Shown here piece after piece: positions 56,426 through 63,992 of a DNA stretch of 64,000 nt. The stretch lies in contig JAFXAK010000007.1 of the NCBI GenBank assembly GCA_017517135.1, positions 1 to 64,000 of the forward strand, read 5' to 3'. This stretch comes from Clostridia bacterium (lineage in GTDB: Bacteria > Bacillota > Clostridia > Oscillospirales > Acutalibacteraceae). Below the pieces are notes generated by a model. That model was given only the letters and a program-made list of their open reading frames with translations, searched no databases and was not told the origin of the DNA. The position numbers and the translations under genes are program-made. The first letter of the stretch is position 1; each line of letters starts with the position of its first letter.

Positions 56426-58039
56426 ATGGCTGTAAAAATTTCTGTTTTTTCATCTCTCGAAAAGATATTTTCCTGTCTGCCCTGTCCCGAAAAAGAGACA
56501 GACAGTTTGTATCTTATAAACGGTGAAAGAGGTGCGCTGCAGTTTGTTGTTGAAAGCGACGAGGATGTTGAAGCCCGGATAAAGGTAAAGAGCGGCATAC
56601 AGGTGAAGCTTTTCAGAGTAGACGAAATATATTCTTCGTATACCATTGATGACGAAAGAGAGAACTGCACGGTGCTCAATGACGCAAAGCCCGGTTACTA
56701 TCCCGATTTACTTTCGCTTGTTCCCGACAGTATTTCACTCGAAAGGGGCAAAAAAGCAGTTTTCTGGCTTGAGGTTGATTCAACTGATGTTGATAAAAAC
56801 GGATATTCTGTAGAATTTGCTGTTGAATGCAAGGATAACACCGTAAGCCGCACGGTAAATGTATACACCGCAAAGGAAAAGCTTCCCGCACAGCAGTTAA
56901 AGCATATGAACTGGTTTCATGCAGACTGCCTTGCCGATTTCTACAAGGTTGAGGTTTTCAGCGAGGAGTTCTGGAGAATAGTTGAGAATTTTATTAAAAA
57001 TGCGGTATCTCACGGCATAAACTGTCTGCTCACTCCTATTTTTACTCCTCCGCTTGACACAGAGGAGGGCGGCGAGAGAACAACCGTACAGCTTGTCGGT
57101 GTTACAAAAAAAGGCTATAACTATACCTTCGATTTTTCAAAGCTTGACCGTTGGGTAGATATGGCTATGAGAAACGGAGTGCAGTTCTTTGAAATTTCAC
57201 ATCTGTTCACTCAATGGGGTGCTGAATACTGTCCGAAAATTATGGCAACAACCTCCACCGGCTACAGAAAAATCTTCGGCTGGGAAAACAAGGCTGACTC
57301 ACAGGGCTATAAGAGCTTCTTAAGACAGTTTTCCGTTGCCTTCAAGGAATACACGGATAAAAAGGGAATAACAGACATCTGCTTTGTTCACACCTCAGAT
57401 GAGCCGAACGATGACAATATCCGTACATATGCAAAGGCATCAAAGATAACACACGAATATTTTTCGGCTTACAGAGATATAGATGCGCTTTCTCATTTTG
57501 AGATTTTTGAATTAGGACTTGTGGGTACTCCCATTCCGAGTGAGAGAAATATAGAAGAGTTCAAAGGTAAGGTTGAAAACCTGTGGACATATTATTGCTG
57601 CGGACCTATAGACGATAATGCACCGAACAGATTTTTCTGCTTACCGTCAATCCGTAACAGAATTTTAGGTGTTCTTTTGTATAAATATGACTGCGAGGGC
57701 TTTTTGCATTGGGGCTATAATTTCTATAACAGCCAGTATTCCAAGGAGCATATAAACCCCTTTGAGGTTTCCGATGCAGGCGGACATTTTCCCTCGGGCG
57801 ACTCCTACATAGTTTACCCCGGTGAAAACGGACAGCCTTTAAGCTCATTAAGACAAAAGGTTTTTTACGAGGGGATACAGGACATAAGTGCTTTGAGATT
57901 ACTCGAACAGCAGACCTCAAGAGAATATGCACTCGAATTTTTAGAAAAGCATTTAGGCGATATCAATTTCACAAATTATCCGCTTGATAATGAAACATTC
58001 CTGAGCTTCAGAAAAGCATTGGTTGAGGAAATAAAGTAA
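56426..58039 (+). CDS. DUF4091 (GH123-like) hydrolase family protein
   Basis: This 537-residue protein has an N-terminal beta-sandwich (about 1-155) and a TIM-barrel-like domain with the DUF4091 landmarks: LKHMNWFHADCLADFY, GINCLLTPIFTPPL, the acidic pair in VHTSDEPNDDN, and FLHWGYNFYNSQY near the end. The D-E pair corresponds to catalytic residues of GH123-type beta-N-acetylgalactosaminidases, but substrate is not proven. No signal peptide suggests cytoplasmic action on imported sugar. GAGGTG precedes the ATG. It is 42 bp upstream of the giant repeat protein gene. Confidence 0.82.
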   Translation: MAVKISVFSSLEKIFSCLPCPEKETDSLYLINGERGALQFVVESDEDVEARIKVKSGIQVKLFRVDEIYSSYTIDDERENCTVLNDAKPGYYPDLLSLVPDSISLERGKKAVFWLEVDSTDVDKNGYSVEFAVECKDNTVSRTVNVYTAKEKLPAQQLKHMNWFHADCLADFYKVEVFSEEFWRIVENFIKNAVSHGINCLLTPIFTPPLDTEEGGERTTVQLVGVTKKGYNYTFDFSKLDRWVDMAMRNGVQFFEISHLFTQWGAEYCPKIMATTSTGYRKIFGWENKADSQGYKSFLRQFSVAFKEYTDKKGITDICFVHTSDEPNDDNIRTYAKASKITHEYFSAYRDIDALSHFEIFELGLVGTPIPSERNIEEFKGKVENLWTYYCCGPIDDNAPNRFFCLPSIRNRILGVLLYKYDCEGFLHWGYNFYNSQYSKEHINPFEVSDAGGHFPSGDSYIVYPGENGQPLSSLRQKVFYEGIQDISALRLLEQQTSREYALEFLEKHLGDINFTNYPLDNETFLSFRKALVEEIK

Positions 58040-58081: not shown

Positions 58082-61000
58082 ATGAAGGAATCAAAAATCA
58101 GAAAAAGCATAAGTAAGGGTATTTTGCTTCTTGTGTCAACTCTTATTATGCTCATTGTTTTCGCAGCAGGTGTTTTTGCTGCAACTCCGTATGAGATAAC
58201 AAAATCCGATGGTGCTCTTGTCAGAACATCTTATTCTGAAAAAGCGTCCTCGGTAAGAAGAGAAGCAAAAGGAAATATCATATGGGTTGTATCAAGCACA
58301 AAAAACAGTGCAGGAAACATATGGTATCAGCTTTCTGACGGCAACTGGATTTATTCAGGTAACGTAAAAAGCCATTCCTGTTCCTGGACCTGGACAAGCG
58401 GTGTTAGTCCTACTTGTACAACTTATGGTATTAATTACTACAGATGTAACAAGTGCGGACAGACAACAAGTCAACACGCACTGCCTTACGGACATAAATT
58501 TAGCGGTAATGTCTGTACTGTCTGCGGAGACTGGAACAGCTCAAGCATTAAATCAAAATCAGCTGTAAATAATGTGAAATATTATGTAACTACTGATGGT
58601 GCAAAGGTACATTCAGGGCCTTATGGAGCCTGTGCTACAACGGCAACACTTTCCAGAGGTACTGAAATTTATGTTACAGAAATGCTTGTAAATGCAAGCA
58701 ATAACACATGGTACAGATACAGCGGCGGTTATATTTTTTCAGACTATGTGAAAGCACATAATTCCTGTGCATGGAACAGCGGCACGGTTACAAAGAAAGC
58801 AACCTGTACTGCATCGGGCACAAAGGTGCAATATTGTACTATCTGTGGCAGAAGTCAGACAACAACACTTTCAAAGGTAAGTCACAAATTCAGTGGAAAT
58901 GTATGTACAGTCTGTGGTGACTGGAACAGATCGAGTATTAAGTCAAGCTCATCGGTAAATAATGTCAAATATTATGTAACTACCAACGGAGCAAAGGTAC
59001 ATTCAGGCCCTTACGGTGCATGTGCCACCACAGCAACGCTTTCCAAGGGGAATGAAATTATTGTTACCGGAAAGTTTGTTAATGCAAGTGACAATGTATG
59101 GTATAAATACAGCGGCGGTTATATATTCGCGGATTATGTAAAGGCGCATAATTCTTGTAAGTGGAACAGCGGCACGGTTACAAAGAAAGCAACCTGTACT
59201 GCAACCGGTACAAAGGTATACACATGCACAATATGCTCAAAAACCAGAACAGATACTATTTCCAAGGTAAGTCACAAATATGAAAATAATGTGTGTACTG
59301 TCTGCGGCGGCTGGAATACATCAAGCCTTAAATCAAGTAAAACAGTAAACAATGTAAAATATTATGTAATAAAGGATGCTTCAAAAGTCCGCACAGGTCC
59401 TTATAACAGCTGTAAAATTGTAAACTCACTTTCCAAGGGAACAGAAATTGTTGTTACCCGAAAGGTTGTGAATGCAAGCGGCAATACATGGTATAAATAC
59501 AGCGGCGGCTACATATTTGGTGATTATGTAAAAGAGCATAACTCCTGCAAATGGAACAGCGGTACTGTTACAAAGAAAGCAACCTGCGCTGCAACAGGTA
59601 CAAAGGTATATACTTGCACTATCTGTTCAAAGACAAAAACAGAAGCTATTGCCAAGGTAAGCCACAAATATGAAAAAAATGTGTGTACAGTCTGTGGTGG
59701 CTGGAATACCTCGAGCCTTAAATCAAGCAAAACAGTAAATAATGCAAAATATTGTGTGATTGTTGACGGAGCAAATGTCCGCACAGGACCGTACAATAGT
59801 TGCAAAACCGTAAAAAAACTTTCAAAAGGTACTGTAATTACAGTTACAAAGGAAGTTGTTAATGCAGATAAAAACACATGGTATAAACTTTCAGATGGCA
59901 ATTGGATATACTCAGGAAATGTTACACAGCGTTTTACTATCAAATATAATGTTAATGGTGGTGAATCTTCTAATCCCAAGAGCAAGACATTCCTCATAGG
60001 AAGCAGTTTTACTATTACTACAGATAAGCCGACAAGAGTGGGTTATATATTTAAGGGTTGGGGAACATCCAAAACTACTACAAAAGTTTCCTATAATTCA
60101 GGTTCTTCTTATAAATTTACCAAGAGTATGACTCTTTATGCTGTGTGGGAAAAGTGCAGTCATGCAAAATATTACGGTGGTATCTGCACTACCTGTAAGT
60201 ACGAATATAAATTAAAGGAAACCTCAATGTCTGCCGTTTACCGTGTTACCAACGGTAACGGTGCTACCGCATGGTCAAGACCTTACTCGCAAAACTCAAA
60301 AAAAGTCAAGGTTTACGATAAAGGGGCAGATCTTACAATCGTTGCGAAGGTAACAAATATCAACGAAAAAGGTAAATCTCACAACACTTGGTACAAGCTC
60401 AAGGACGGCTCATGGGTATTCTCAGGCAATGTCACAGAGCGCTTTATGGTCAAATATAACGCAAACGGAGGAAAAAACGCTCCCGACAAGCAGTATTTTC
60501 TTTCAGGTAAATCCGTAAAAATCACTTCTTCCAAGCCCACAAGAGAAAAGTATGTGTTCAAGGGCTGGGCAACAGACAGCGATTCGAAAAAGGTAAAATA
60601 CAAGGCAGGCGACGAATACGATAAGGACAAGAACCTTTATCTTTATGCCGTATGGGAAAAGTGCAATCATAAATATAATGATCTGGGCAAATGTACGGTA
60701 TGTAAATATACCTACACCATAACCGTTACAAAATCATCAGGAACCGTTGTTGTTACCGAAAAAGATGGAGCCGTTATCAGAAACAAGCCCTACAGTGGCG
60801 GTTCAAAGGTCAGAACAGCCAAATATATGGAGCCGCTTACCATTGTAGGATACACAATCAACGCTCACAATAATAAATGGTTTAAGCTTTCCGACGGCAA
60901 CTGGATATTTGCAGGAAATGTTGAAAGCGGTCACAAGGTAACCTATAAAGCCAACGGTGGTAAGAAAGCACCTGCTTCAACGGGCTTTGTATCAGGCAAG

Positions 61001-62404
61001 CTCACAATATCATCTGCTATTCCTACACGCAGCGGATATACTTTTATGGGTTGGTCAACTTCAAATACAGCCAAAACAGCCACCTACAAAACGGGAGATA
61101 CCTACAAGGTAAAGAAAAATATCACTCTTTATGCCGTATGGAAAAGCTGTAACCATAACTACAAAAACAATTACGGTGTATGTAAAAACTGCAAGGCAGA
61201 GTATCCTCTTACAGTAACATCAACAAGCAACACCGTTTATGAAGTGGATAACAGAAACGGCACCTATTCATATAAAAGGCCCTATGCTAAGTCATCTGAA
61301 AAGGTAAAAAAATATTCCGACGAAAGCCTTCTTGTTGTAACAGGCTCTGCAAAGAACCAATACGGTGAAACCTGGTGCAAATTAAAGAACGGCAACTGGA
61401 TTCTAAAAAGCGATCTTGAAAAGAAAACCACCTACAATACTATGTATGATGTTTCCAAAAAGCTCTTTAGCGTTTTGGAAAAAACATCTTCAATATACTC
61501 AAAAAGCATTGACGGCATTTCCTATTATTCCATATCTTCCAAAAACGGCCGTGTATTTATAGCAGAATCTGCTTTTACGGAAAAAAGTAAGAACACCCAG
61601 CTTAAAAACGTAAATAAAAAAATCAATCAGACCCTCAACAGTGCCACAAACATTTCCACAGAGCAGACCTTTGTTTACAACAGGAAAAAGATAGTTGAAG
61701 TTCCGTCGACATCCTCAAACAGTACACCTTGCGCAAACAGCAAAAAAACTCATAACCATGTTCAGTGGGAACTTTATCTGCTTACCGTTGAAGCTGGAAT
61801 TTCAGGCGGAAAGACCATTGTTACAAAATGCACCGTTGACGGTATCAGATGCTATGATTACTGTACTGCCTCCGAAGCCCTTGACACCAATCGCACTAAT
61901 ACCCTTCAAAGCAAAACAAGTATACGGCCTGTGTTCTCCGTAGGAGTAACTCCGATTGCCGATAAAAACGGTAAATCAACCGGCTATTACACAGACTTCC
62001 ACCTCACCGGTAAGGGTAAAGAAGCAAAGAGCCTGACGCTCGATGATTATGTTGATCTGACAACGGGCTTGATTGATGTGTTGGATTCGGCAGGCAAGGT
62101 TGCGATCAGCACCGAACCCGTATCAGCAGCAGTAAATATTTATAAGCTTGCAAAGAGCACATGGAAGTTCTCGACCACCGCTAGCAAGCTTAACGCGTCT
62201 GCTGAATACAAATCAGCTGAGCACATATGGCTCAATAAGCTTTACTATAAGGACGAGCCGTCAAAGCTTCTGCGTATCTATGATATTAACACAAAATCTC
62301 CCATAAAGCTTCAGAATAAAGGCGATTATCTGAACATGGATATCATGACTTATAACTTTAACGACAGCAAACAAAATATCAACTTCAGTCTCTCAATCAA
62401 ATAA
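58082..62404 (+). CDS. Giant secreted SH3b/Cys-ribbon/InlB-repeat protein
   Basis: This 1440-residue exported protein has a signal peptide ending near VFA-AT. After an SH3b-like segment come about four tandem units of 130 residues (about 95-620). Each pairs a Cys/His ribbon (NSC..W.SGTVTKKATC...CTIC...H...NVCTVCG.W) with a bacterial SH3-like domain (KYYVTTDGAKVHSGPYGAC ... TWYKYSGGYIF). Three InlB-type repeats follow, each ending TLYAVW or LYAVW, alternating with further CxxC ribbons and SH3b-like units (about 620-1110). The C-terminal 320 residues are a separate domain with no known motif. SH3b and InlB repeats typically bind cell wall or surface partners. AGGAGG precedes the ATG. Confidence 0.85.
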   Translation: MKESKIRKSISKGILLLVSTLIMLIVFAAGVFAATPYEITKSDGALVRTSYSEKASSVRREAKGNIIWVVSSTKNSAGNIWYQLSDGNWIYSGNVKSHSCSWTWTSGVSPTCTTYGINYYRCNKCGQTTSQHALPYGHKFSGNVCTVCGDWNSSSIKSKSAVNNVKYYVTTDGAKVHSGPYGACATTATLSRGTEIYVTEMLVNASNNTWYRYSGGYIFSDYVKAHNSCAWNSGTVTKKATCTASGTKVQYCTICGRSQTTTLSKVSHKFSGNVCTVCGDWNRSSIKSSSSVNNVKYYVTTNGAKVHSGPYGACATTATLSKGNEIIVTGKFVNASDNVWYKYSGGYIFADYVKAHNSCKWNSGTVTKKATCTATGTKVYTCTICSKTRTDTISKVSHKYENNVCTVCGGWNTSSLKSSKTVNNVKYYVIKDASKVRTGPYNSCKIVNSLSKGTEIVVTRKVVNASGNTWYKYSGGYIFGDYVKEHNSCKWNSGTVTKKATCAATGTKVYTCTICSKTKTEAIAKVSHKYEKNVCTVCGGWNTSSLKSSKTVNNAKYCVIVDGANVRTGPYNSCKTVKKLSKGTVITVTKEVVNADKNTWYKLSDGNWIYSGNVTQRFTIKYNVNGGESSNPKSKTFLIGSSFTITTDKPTRVGYIFKGWGTSKTTTKVSYNSGSSYKFTKSMTLYAVWEKCSHAKYYGGICTTCKYEYKLKETSMSAVYRVTNGNGATAWSRPYSQNSKKVKVYDKGADLTIVAKVTNINEKGKSHNTWYKLKDGSWVFSGNVTERFMVKYNANGGKNAPDKQYFLSGKSVKITSSKPTREKYVFKGWATDSDSKKVKYKAGDEYDKDKNLYLYAVWEKCNHKYNDLGKCTVCKYTYTITVTKSSGTVVVTEKDGAVIRNKPYSGGSKVRTAKYMEPLTIVGYTINAHNNKWFKLSDGNWIFAGNVESGHKVTYKANGGKKAPASTGFVSGKLTISSAIPTRSGYTFMGWSTSNTAKTATYKTGDTYKVKKNITLYAVWKSCNHNYKNNYGVCKNCKAEYPLTVTSTSNTVYEVDNRNGTYSYKRPYAKSSEKVKKYSDESLLVVTGSAKNQYGETWCKLKNGNWILKSDLEKKTTYNTMYDVSKKLFSVLEKTSSIYSKSIDGISYYSISSKNGRVFIAESAFTEKSKNTQLKNVNKKINQTLNSATNISTEQTFVYNRKKIVEVPSTSSNSTPCANSKKTHNHVQWELYLLTVEAGISGGKTIVTKCTVDGIRCYDYCTASEALDTNRTNTLQSKTSIRPVFSVGVTPIADKNGKSTGYYTDFHLTGKGKEAKSLTLDDYVDLTTGLIDVLDSAGKVAISTEPVSAAVNIYKLAKSTWKFSTTASKLNASAEYKSAEHIWLNKLYYKDEPSKLLRIYDINTKSPIKLQNKGDYLNMDIMTYNFNDSKQNINFSLSIK
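58371..59930 (+). repeat. Tandem 390-bp coding repeats
   Basis: The segment beginning TGGAACAGCGG recurs at 58772, 59162 and 59552, exactly 390 bp (130 codons) apart, and a diverged unit lies 390 bp earlier near 58382. Middle units share long identical runs at DNA level, implying recent duplication or gene conversion. Confidence 0.88.
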
Positions 62405-62413
62405 CCAAGAAAA

Positions 62414-62450
62414 AAACAGTCGGGTGTACAAAACACCTGACTGTTTTTGT
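62414..62450 (+). terminator. Terminator of the giant repeat protein gene
   Basis: A 14-bp stem (AAACAGTCGGGTGT / ACACCTGACTGTTT, one G-U pair) is followed by TTG/T-rich sequence. The group II intron remnant begins right after it. Confidence 0.88.
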
Positions 62451-62451
62451 T

Positions 62452-62748
62452 GTGTGCTCGGCACGCGTAATTACTTGGCGGTGGAAGTCCGCTATGCACT
62501 CGGTAGTAGGAAGCATTAGCCGAAGGCAAGGGGGGCCATCGCGAGGTGGAATCTGAAGGGTATAGGTTGAAAAGTGCCTCTGCGAGCAAAGTTCTGGATT
62601 GACGCGCAGAAATCGCATATAAGGCTGATTTGGGACGGACGACTCTGCCAAACAAGAAGTCACAAGCAACAACTTATCGAAACGCCGTGTACGGGTCCGT
62701 ACGCATGGTGTTGTGGGGGCAGTGGTTAGTCACCGCCTCCTATTCGAT
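62452..62748 (+). mobile_element. ORF-less group IIC intron remnant
   Basis: The 5' end GTGTGCTCGGCACG matches the group IIC intron start (GTGTGCCCGGC-type), followed by domain I landmarks GGCGGTGGAAGTCC, AGCCGAAGGCAAGGG, GGAATCTGAAGG and AAGGCTGATTTGGGACGGA. After about 62670 it jumps to a domain V hairpin (GCCGTGTACGGGTCCGTACG, 62684-62703, continuing GCATGGTGTTGTGG) and a domain VI-like stem ending CCTCCTATTCGAT. Domains II-IV and the reverse-transcriptase ORF are missing; total about 297 bp. It sits directly downstream of a terminator hairpin, the hallmark target of class C introns. It is probably immobile on its own and may no longer splice. Confidence 0.82.
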
Positions 62749-62756
62749 TTTGTGAA

Positions 62757-63992
62757 TTATAACACGGGAAGTATTACTCTGAATTCAACAAGTCCGTCAA
62801 AGCAGAGCACCTCTATGTGTCCCTTATGGGAGACGGTTATTGCCTTTGCTATGGCAAGGCCCAGTCCGTAGTGTCCGCTGTCGCTGTTTCGGGCGGTGTC
62901 CATTCGGTAGAAGCGCTCAAAAATTTTATCGCGGTGCTCTGACGGGATTTCGTCACCGCTGTTTATAACAGACAACTTTGCAAGGGAGTGCTCCTTTGTT
63001 AAGGATATGCTTATTTCGCCCGGTTGACTGCTGTGCTGTATTGCATTGTCAAGGAGTATTGAGACGAGCTGCTTGAGCTGTGTGCCGTTGCCCTTAACAT
63101 TGATATTACCTGCGATATCGCTGTTAAGTATAAGTCCTTTTTCAAATGCAACGCTTTCAAAGGGCAGAGCCTCACCCGCAACCAGACGGCTTAAATTTAT
63201 TTCTTCGGTCTCGGGTGTCACATTTTCTGTTCTTGAAAGCTCAAGAAGCTGTCCTACAAGCTTTCCCATCCGCTCGTTTTCATACTGAATATTCTGCAGC
63301 CACGGGTTATCGCCTACTTCTCGGGATAAAAGCTCTGCGTTTGCACTTACAACCGATACGGGAGTTTTTAATTCGTGTCCCGCATCTGAAATAAACTGTC
63401 TTTGCTTGCTGTAGCTTTCCTCAAGAGGATCCACAATTTTTTTTGCAAGAAATACCGACAAAAAGAAGAACAGAACAAGTGCAAGTGAGCCGAAAATAAG
63501 AGTATAGCGGAATAAAGTCATTGCGCTTTCGTTTACTATCGTGTTATCCATAAAGGTAACAAGGATATATCCGTTTTTGTCTGTTGAATAAAATGCAAGA
63601 TTATTTTTTGTTCCGCTGATCTTGTTGTTTTTTATTATGCTAAGTGCCATATCTTTAAGCTCGTCATCGGTATGTACCGTTGGCGGCTCGTTTTGAATTT
63701 CGAGAATACTGCCGTTATAGGAAACTGCAACAGTATAAAATACAGACAGCTGAAACATAGGTGATTCGGAAAAGGTCGGATTTCCGCCCGGAAACGGCAT
63801 AGAGGGCACCATTATACCATCAAAATATCCGGTCAGAGTATACATCTGAGCATGGGTTTTGAGTAATCTTGCGTTCTGATTTGACATTTCAATATAGCTT
63901 GATGCATAAATAATGCTCAGCGTACCTACCCACAGCAGAACAAGAACGGACATAATCGCGGCAACAATTTTTTTTCGTGATTTCTTAAACAT
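62757..63992 (-). CDS. Sensor histidine kinase
   Basis: This 411-residue two-component sensor has a first transmembrane helix (about 10-30), an extracytoplasmic sensor region (about 31-160), a second helix (LIFGSLALVLFFFLSVFLA, about 166-184), and a catalytic core. The H box is DAGHELKTPVSV (His about 208), N box LLDNAIQHSS and G box HYGLGLAIAKAI. No clear HAMP domain separates helix and H box. The start codon lies 8 bp from the window edge, so the partner response regulator is presumably just outside. The signal is unknown. Confidence 0.9.
   Translation of the reverse strand: MFKKSRKKIVAAIMSVLVLLWVGTLSIIYASSYIEMSNQNARLLKTHAQMYTLTGYFDGIMVPSMPFPGGNPTFSESPMFQLSVFYTVAVSYNGSILEIQNEPPTVHTDDELKDMALSIIKNNKISGTKNNLAFYSTDKNGYILVTFMDNTIVNESAMTLFRYTLIFGSLALVLFFFLSVFLAKKIVDPLEESYSKQRQFISDAGHELKTPVSVVSANAELLSREVGDNPWLQNIQYENERMGKLVGQLLELSRTENVTPETEEINLSRLVAGEALPFESVAFEKGLILNSDIAGNINVKGNGTQLKQLVSILLDNAIQHSSQPGEISISLTKEHSLAKLSVINSGDEIPSEHRDKIFERFYRMDTARNSDSGHYGLGLAIAKAITVSHKGHIEVLCFDGLVEFRVILPVL

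Follow-up and report, generated by a model that had tools for sequence, protein, structure and literature searches.

A short, internally deleted group IIC intron, probably an inactive remnant, behind a terminator hairpin in a Clostridia bacterium

The 297-nt element at positions 62452–62748 (+ strand) of the window, by which we mean the whole 64,000-nucleotide stretch that was analysed, is confirmed as a group IIC (class C) intron that retains its two ends and has no ORF. It is in all likelihood an ordinary, internally deleted and probably inactive copy standing behind a terminator. The class C 5′ end, the domain I motifs and domains V and VI that the first-pass annotation had recognised within about 297 bp are borne out by the agreement of the Rfam models RF02001 and RF00029 with blastn. 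The element and its surroundings are as follows.

62452–62748, + strand: internally deleted group IIC intron, 297 nt (Rfam, blastn, alignment with relatives)
58082–62404, + strand: upstream gene, 1440 aa (ORF list; Pfam PF09479, PF08239)
62412–62448, + strand: terminator hairpin with T-rich tail (RNA fold, −23.3 kcal/mol)
62444–62451, + strand: presumed IBS1, TTTTTGTT, the final 8 bases of the 5′ exon (pairs with AACAAGAA)
62452–62659, + strand: retained 5′ part of domain I, ending at about the EBS1 hairpin (blastn, RF02001, alignment)
62651–62658, + strand: presumed EBS1, AACAAGAA (pairing with IBS1; loop in relatives)
62659–62678, + strand: deletion junction region (gap between blastn blocks 1–208 and 227–298; alignment)
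62680–62748, + strand: domains V and VI, to the 3′ splice site (RF00029; identity to relatives)
62757–63992, − strand: convergent histidine kinase gene (ORF list; Pfam HisKA, HATPase_c)

The intron begins with GTGTGCTC and ends with CTCCTATTCGAT, both of which match the ends of its relatives, and its 297 nt leave no room for an intron-encoded reverse transcriptase. The 1440-aa protein encoded upstream carries Listeria-Bacteroides repeats and an SH3_3 domain (Pfam), and the stop codon of the kinase gene begins 8 bases beyond the 3′ end of the intron. The window belongs to contig C35 of a 2.27-Mb draft genome in 42 contigs (94% complete), and this contig runs on beyond the window to 84,642 bases. 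Elsewhere in the window we noted a T-box leader at 2250–2502 (96.6 bits in the Rfam scan), a tRNA-Pro (TGG) at 1839–1914 on the − strand and, adjoining the repeat protein gene, a glycoside hydrolase 123 gene at 56426–58039 (Pfam).

Class C identity and the missing block

RF02001, which models part of domain I, scored 34.3 bits on the whole window and 46.2 bits (E 1.3e-8) on 62452–62678 alone, where the match spanned 62535–62678, covered model positions 1–128 of 170 and was cut at the 3′ end; the full-window alignment runs into domain V. RF00029, which models domains V and VI, matched over its full length (1–77 of 77) at 32.5 bits (E 9.8e-5). Thus, of the Rfam evidence by which the first-pass annotation had proposed to judge the element, the domain I model exceeded its gathering score of 32, whereas the domain V/VI model stayed under its gathering score of 40. 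Among 300 genomes of the same family, blastn returned matches in 20, the element's own genome included; two candidate stretches were scored per genome, and copy counts are therefore lower bounds. The 5′ part was 69–87% identical to these sequences over varying lengths, with E values down to 1.4e-41 which, together with the 46.2 bits for RF02001, uphold the proposed resemblance of the 5′ segment to class C introns. The three best family matches were 76–78% identical over intron positions 1–208 (76% to genome G265, 78% to G218), and the 3′ 70-odd nt were 75–84% identical in G111, G265 and G298.

The domain V/VI part was 85% identical to the locus in G111 (L026) and 76% identical to that in G265. 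The contig of L026, the most similar 3′ end, stops 39 bases away from it, and a direct parent is not seen. By eye, the pairing of domains V and VI is retained in the window intron, and the basal C–G pair of L026 is replaced by A–U, a variant at the base of domain V that the 650-nt intron of G265 shares; this single pair change suggests that decay at the ends has been slight. The predicted fold of the 297-nt RNA was not unusual compared to shuffled sequences (z −0.73; 43 of 200 shuffles equal or better) and is uninformative.

Aligned to the 650-nt G265 intron, the element has one gap of 341 columns (~340 nt). The absent block starts near where the EBS1 hairpin ends and stops no more than ~20 nt short of domain V. 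It takes in domains II and III, the greater part of domain IV and also the 3′ part of domain I. By manual count of the alignment marks, 32 model pairs of RF02001 have their 3′ arm past the retained part, and RF01998, which was found in 4 of 5 relatives scanned, had no match in the window intron. The alignment agrees with the earlier reading that domains II–IV and the protein are missing, but that reading had overlooked the loss of the 3′ part of domain I. It is this loss that bears most on function, making splicing or mobilisation in trans unlikely. In the G265 relative, AAGTC and AGGTC lie near the two break points (by eye), which at 76% identity is a weak hint as to how the deletion arose; the deletion junction itself is known from one draft assembly.

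Insertion site, relatives and sources of reverse transcriptase

The hairpin upstream of the intron has a stem of 16 pairs and a tail with 8 T among its final 10 bases. A consensus terminator scan reported none on the + strand and only a 5-pair stem on the − strand (62437–62423); the hairpin is A-rich on its other side and may also serve the opposite strand. We scored 5′ flanks as terminator-like when they folded at −8 kcal/mol or lower and had at least 4 T in the final 10 bases. By this test 30 of 31 flanks passed (that of the window intron, 25 of 26 relatives and all four compact copies described below), the sole failure being L099, compared to 167 of 2000 random 45-mers from the window; the flank sample includes several from one genome and skips three loci and one second piece in which the intron start was not reached. 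Together, the hairpin fold and the flank test support the original placement of the element directly behind the terminator of the giant repeat protein gene. The presumed EBS1 and IBS1 form 8 of 8 pairs, one of them G–T. Because 15 of 63,992 window 8-mers also reach 8 of 8, as does 1 of 14 foreign 5′ exons (L089), this pairing is compatible with insertion but discriminates poorly among T-rich tails. A similar EBS1 loop occurs at the same place in 10 of the 14 relatives examined, the motif being unmatched in the other 4.

The G265 intron (L103; G265:C57:5686-6335) is a 650-nt class C intron without a long ORF that matches RF02001 at 120.2, RF01998 at 40.7 and RF00029 at 51.3 bits and has a terminator upstream. 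A copy in G298, a genome of another genus, is 100% identical to it over 624 nt (L040; G298:C66:10085-10708) and begins at a contig end, without 26 nt; a second identical stretch in G298 also lies at a contig end. Compared to the window copy, this 650-nt intron has similar ends (76% identity over 1–208, 75% over 227–298) but carries the ~340-nt block that the window copy is without. RVT_1 had no match in either the G265 or the G298 genome, and the spread of ORF-less IIC introns where no reverse transcriptase is apparent may merit separate study. In the family blastn list, G265 and G298 were the only genomes besides the element's own with the two ends close together; in a later local blastn, L020 and L089 also paired both ends, at longer distance. 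When five relatives were scanned, L089, L083, L111 and L103 matched RF02001 end to end at 120–150 bits and matched RF01998 as well, and the fifth, L094, was a broken copy (RF02001, 25.7 bits). RF00029 was matched at E ≤0.1 by L103 only of these five; in L089 domain V is visible by eye. L089 is a class C intron of ~620 nt without a long ORF (start 1688, − strand) in G675, a genome of the window's genus with five RVT_1 matches.

In its own genome the intron is single-copy (all 11 blastn candidates scored), no second RF02001 match was found elsewhere, and RVT_1 had no match, although the 6% or so by which the genome falls short of completeness may encode a reverse transcriptase. The full-length relative with a reverse transcriptase that the first-pass annotation had thought of seeking elsewhere in this genome thus did not turn up. 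Of 26 further genomes of the genus, 8 match the 5′ end of the intron, and RVT_1 was matched in all eight, below the cut-off in G666. Four others match in the kinase gene alone; two of these were searched as well, and neither gave an RVT_1 match. The genus thus contains a source of reverse transcriptase, its RVT_1 genes being counted here per genome and not assigned to individual class C introns. Among family genomes with intron matches, RVT_1 was found in 5 of 11.

An exact pattern in which CGCCGT follows the domain I motif at a spacing of 108–138 bases, and which diverged copies escape, detected the compact form in 1 of the order's 394 genomes, namely that of the element itself. The same deleted form was not seen in the other genomes covered by these limited searches (family blastn and order-wide pattern). 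No empty site was found in the genus, a match across the site being confined to the element's own among 27 genomes; the kinase gene of G660 has different neighbouring sequence and its own adjacent hairpin (by eye). An exact search of the genome contig collection with a 25-base stretch of the element returned nothing, the phage collection gave one record covering the 5′ part only, and none of 246 records from the plasmid collection had one place covering 80% of the query. A literature search found no title on this intron copy, a statement that we confine to this copy.

Compact copies elsewhere and competing explanations

A pattern for the compact form retrieved nine stretches from the genome contig collection, four of which are compact IIC copies by reading.

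L048, Lachnospira MAG: 293 nt; RF00029 43.5, RF02001 28.7 (below its gathering score)
L052, Bacteroidaceae MAG: 319 nt; RF00029 44.8, RF02001 81.2 bits
L054, Erysipelotrichaceae MAG: 312 nt; RF00029 46.7, RF02001 41.8 bits
L056, Photobacterium sanguinicancri: 206 nt; RF00029 39.7, RF02001 39.3 bits

The RF00029 match of L048 was not listed in a later scan. Many of the 3′ arms of L052 are mispaired or gapped in the domain I alignment, and this copy, too, seems to be truncated within domain I; L056 satisfies the pattern through a CGCCGT located beyond the intron. By reading, we rejected L053 as a fuller intron with a chance pattern match, L049, L050, L051 and L055 as chance matches, and both stretches from the viral contig collection likewise as chance. 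The collection patterns need an exact domain I motif and one spacing range and so miss diverged copies and copies of other sizes; L111 is an example without the exact motif. As read, the four compact copies (206–319 nt) come from unrelated bacteria, stand behind terminators and differ in their junctions. None of the compact forms was shown at two sites; for three of these four genomes, one of the searches scored 150 candidates.

The 206-nt form from Photobacterium is open to doubt. Two loci of this organism, L112 and L113 on contigs C2 and C67, are identical over 1500 of 1500 upstream bases and then differ inside the intron, C67 departing from the 206-nt copy on C2 after 131 bases. A repeat, a mixed population or a misassembly may account for this difference, and the 206-nt form may be an assembly artefact. 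We also dropped the idea that this form is multi-copy (C67, C250), since the flank of C67 is that of C2.

Several other copies are broken in different ways. In related genomes, L094 and L085 are broken copies, L141 is truncated both within domain I and 3′-terminally (by eye), and L092 passes into an RVT_1 frame after its initial 60-odd bases. In L066 (~567), from the same Erysipelotrichaceae genome as L054, an RVT_1 frame passes straight into domain V, with a match just below the cut-off (E 2.2e-6, 28 bits). L060 and L068 have in common a 70-aa open frame before domain V that matched no Pfam family. One-off junctions together with many broken copies are what would be expected if an intron that seeks out terminators decays or inserts faultily.

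In the history that we consider most probable, a group IIC intron inserted behind the terminator of the upstream gene, presumably by reverse splicing guided by EBS1–IBS1 pairing as in the rest of its family, and lost one internal block of ~340 nt, either through a template jump during target-primed reverse transcription or by a later ordinary deletion; comparison shows both its position behind the terminator and the absence of the block. Having lost the arms that close domain I, the RNA would very probably be incapable of splicing or of movement, whether in cis or in trans. Transcription of its sense strand is probably infrequent, given the strong hairpin terminator upstream, and on the opposite strand the element would now belong to the 3′ portion of the histidine kinase transcript.

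The first-pass annotation had raised another possibility, namely that the copy is a compact, non-autonomous element for which a full-length IIC intron supplies the reverse transcriptase in trans. In its favour, the copy keeps both ends, the presumed EBS1 and domains V and VI, and at least 8 of 26 other genus genomes combine IIC 5′ ends with RVT_1 (under the cut-off in G666), with similar short forms known from four other organisms. However, there is one copy and no RVT_1 match in its own genome, the exact pattern detected the compact form in 1 of 394 order genomes, the deletion reaches into domain I and leaves it incomplete, and the other short forms differ in their junctions, with none at two sites among the candidates scored; we therefore regard mobilisation in trans as distinctly improbable. 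Very improbable, too, is that the deletion is an assembly artefact and that the real genome holds a longer intron. The 42-contig draft and the Photobacterium contigs, which illustrate how doubtful such forms can be in drafts, speak for it, but the intron is single-copy, leaving no repeat to confuse the assembler, and its contig extends past the window to 84,642 bases. Retention of the remnant for a new use, for instance as a stable 3′ structure of the kinase transcript or as a small RNA, could be read into the preserved domain V/VI pairing (by eye) and the kinase stop codon 8 bases away. We consider this exceedingly improbable given that, of 27 genus genomes, only its own matches across the site, that the G660 kinase is differently flanked, and that the fold is ordinary (z −0.73).

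A broader proposal concerns the 200–320-nt copies as a set: they might recur behind terminators in unrelated bacteria because class C reverse transcription frequently switches, at integration, from the side of domain V into domain I, which would create compact copies at the moment of insertion, with some perhaps moving again in trans. We hold this to be unlikely; if true, compact copies that arise at insertion would inform how class C reverse transcription fails.

Comparison with known systems

By itself the window copy is minor, amounting to one intergenic region correctly annotated and a ribozyme core partly lost. Short, internally deleted class C copies nevertheless occur in several unrelated bacteria, and searches based on reverse transcriptase would miss them. 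One published survey accepts RF00029 matches above 24 bits with a domain I–IV match within 1,300 bases (PMC8919778); the window copy might satisfy these rules and would then be within reach of such a survey.

TeI3n, from Thermosynechococcus elongatus, is not known to belong to class C. It is described as a fragment from which a large internal section is deleted, between domain Id on the 5′ side and IVa1, and is to that extent a precedent for an internally deleted group II fragment like the window copy (PMC2882425). The genome of TeI3n, however, has 25 intact relatives (PMC2882425), whereas no other copy was found in the genome of the window intron. Bacterial ORF-less group II introns likewise are without an intron-encoded protein, but the functional ones keep their RNA domains and can splice (PMC4424553), whereas the window copy is without part of domain I and without domains II–IV. 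The group III introns of Euglena chloroplasts are likewise very short relatives of group II introns, and their removal is thought to be aided by other factors (PMC4424553). They differ from the window copy in that many stand in essential genes and they are without domain V (PMC4424553), whereas the window copy is intergenic and keeps domain V.
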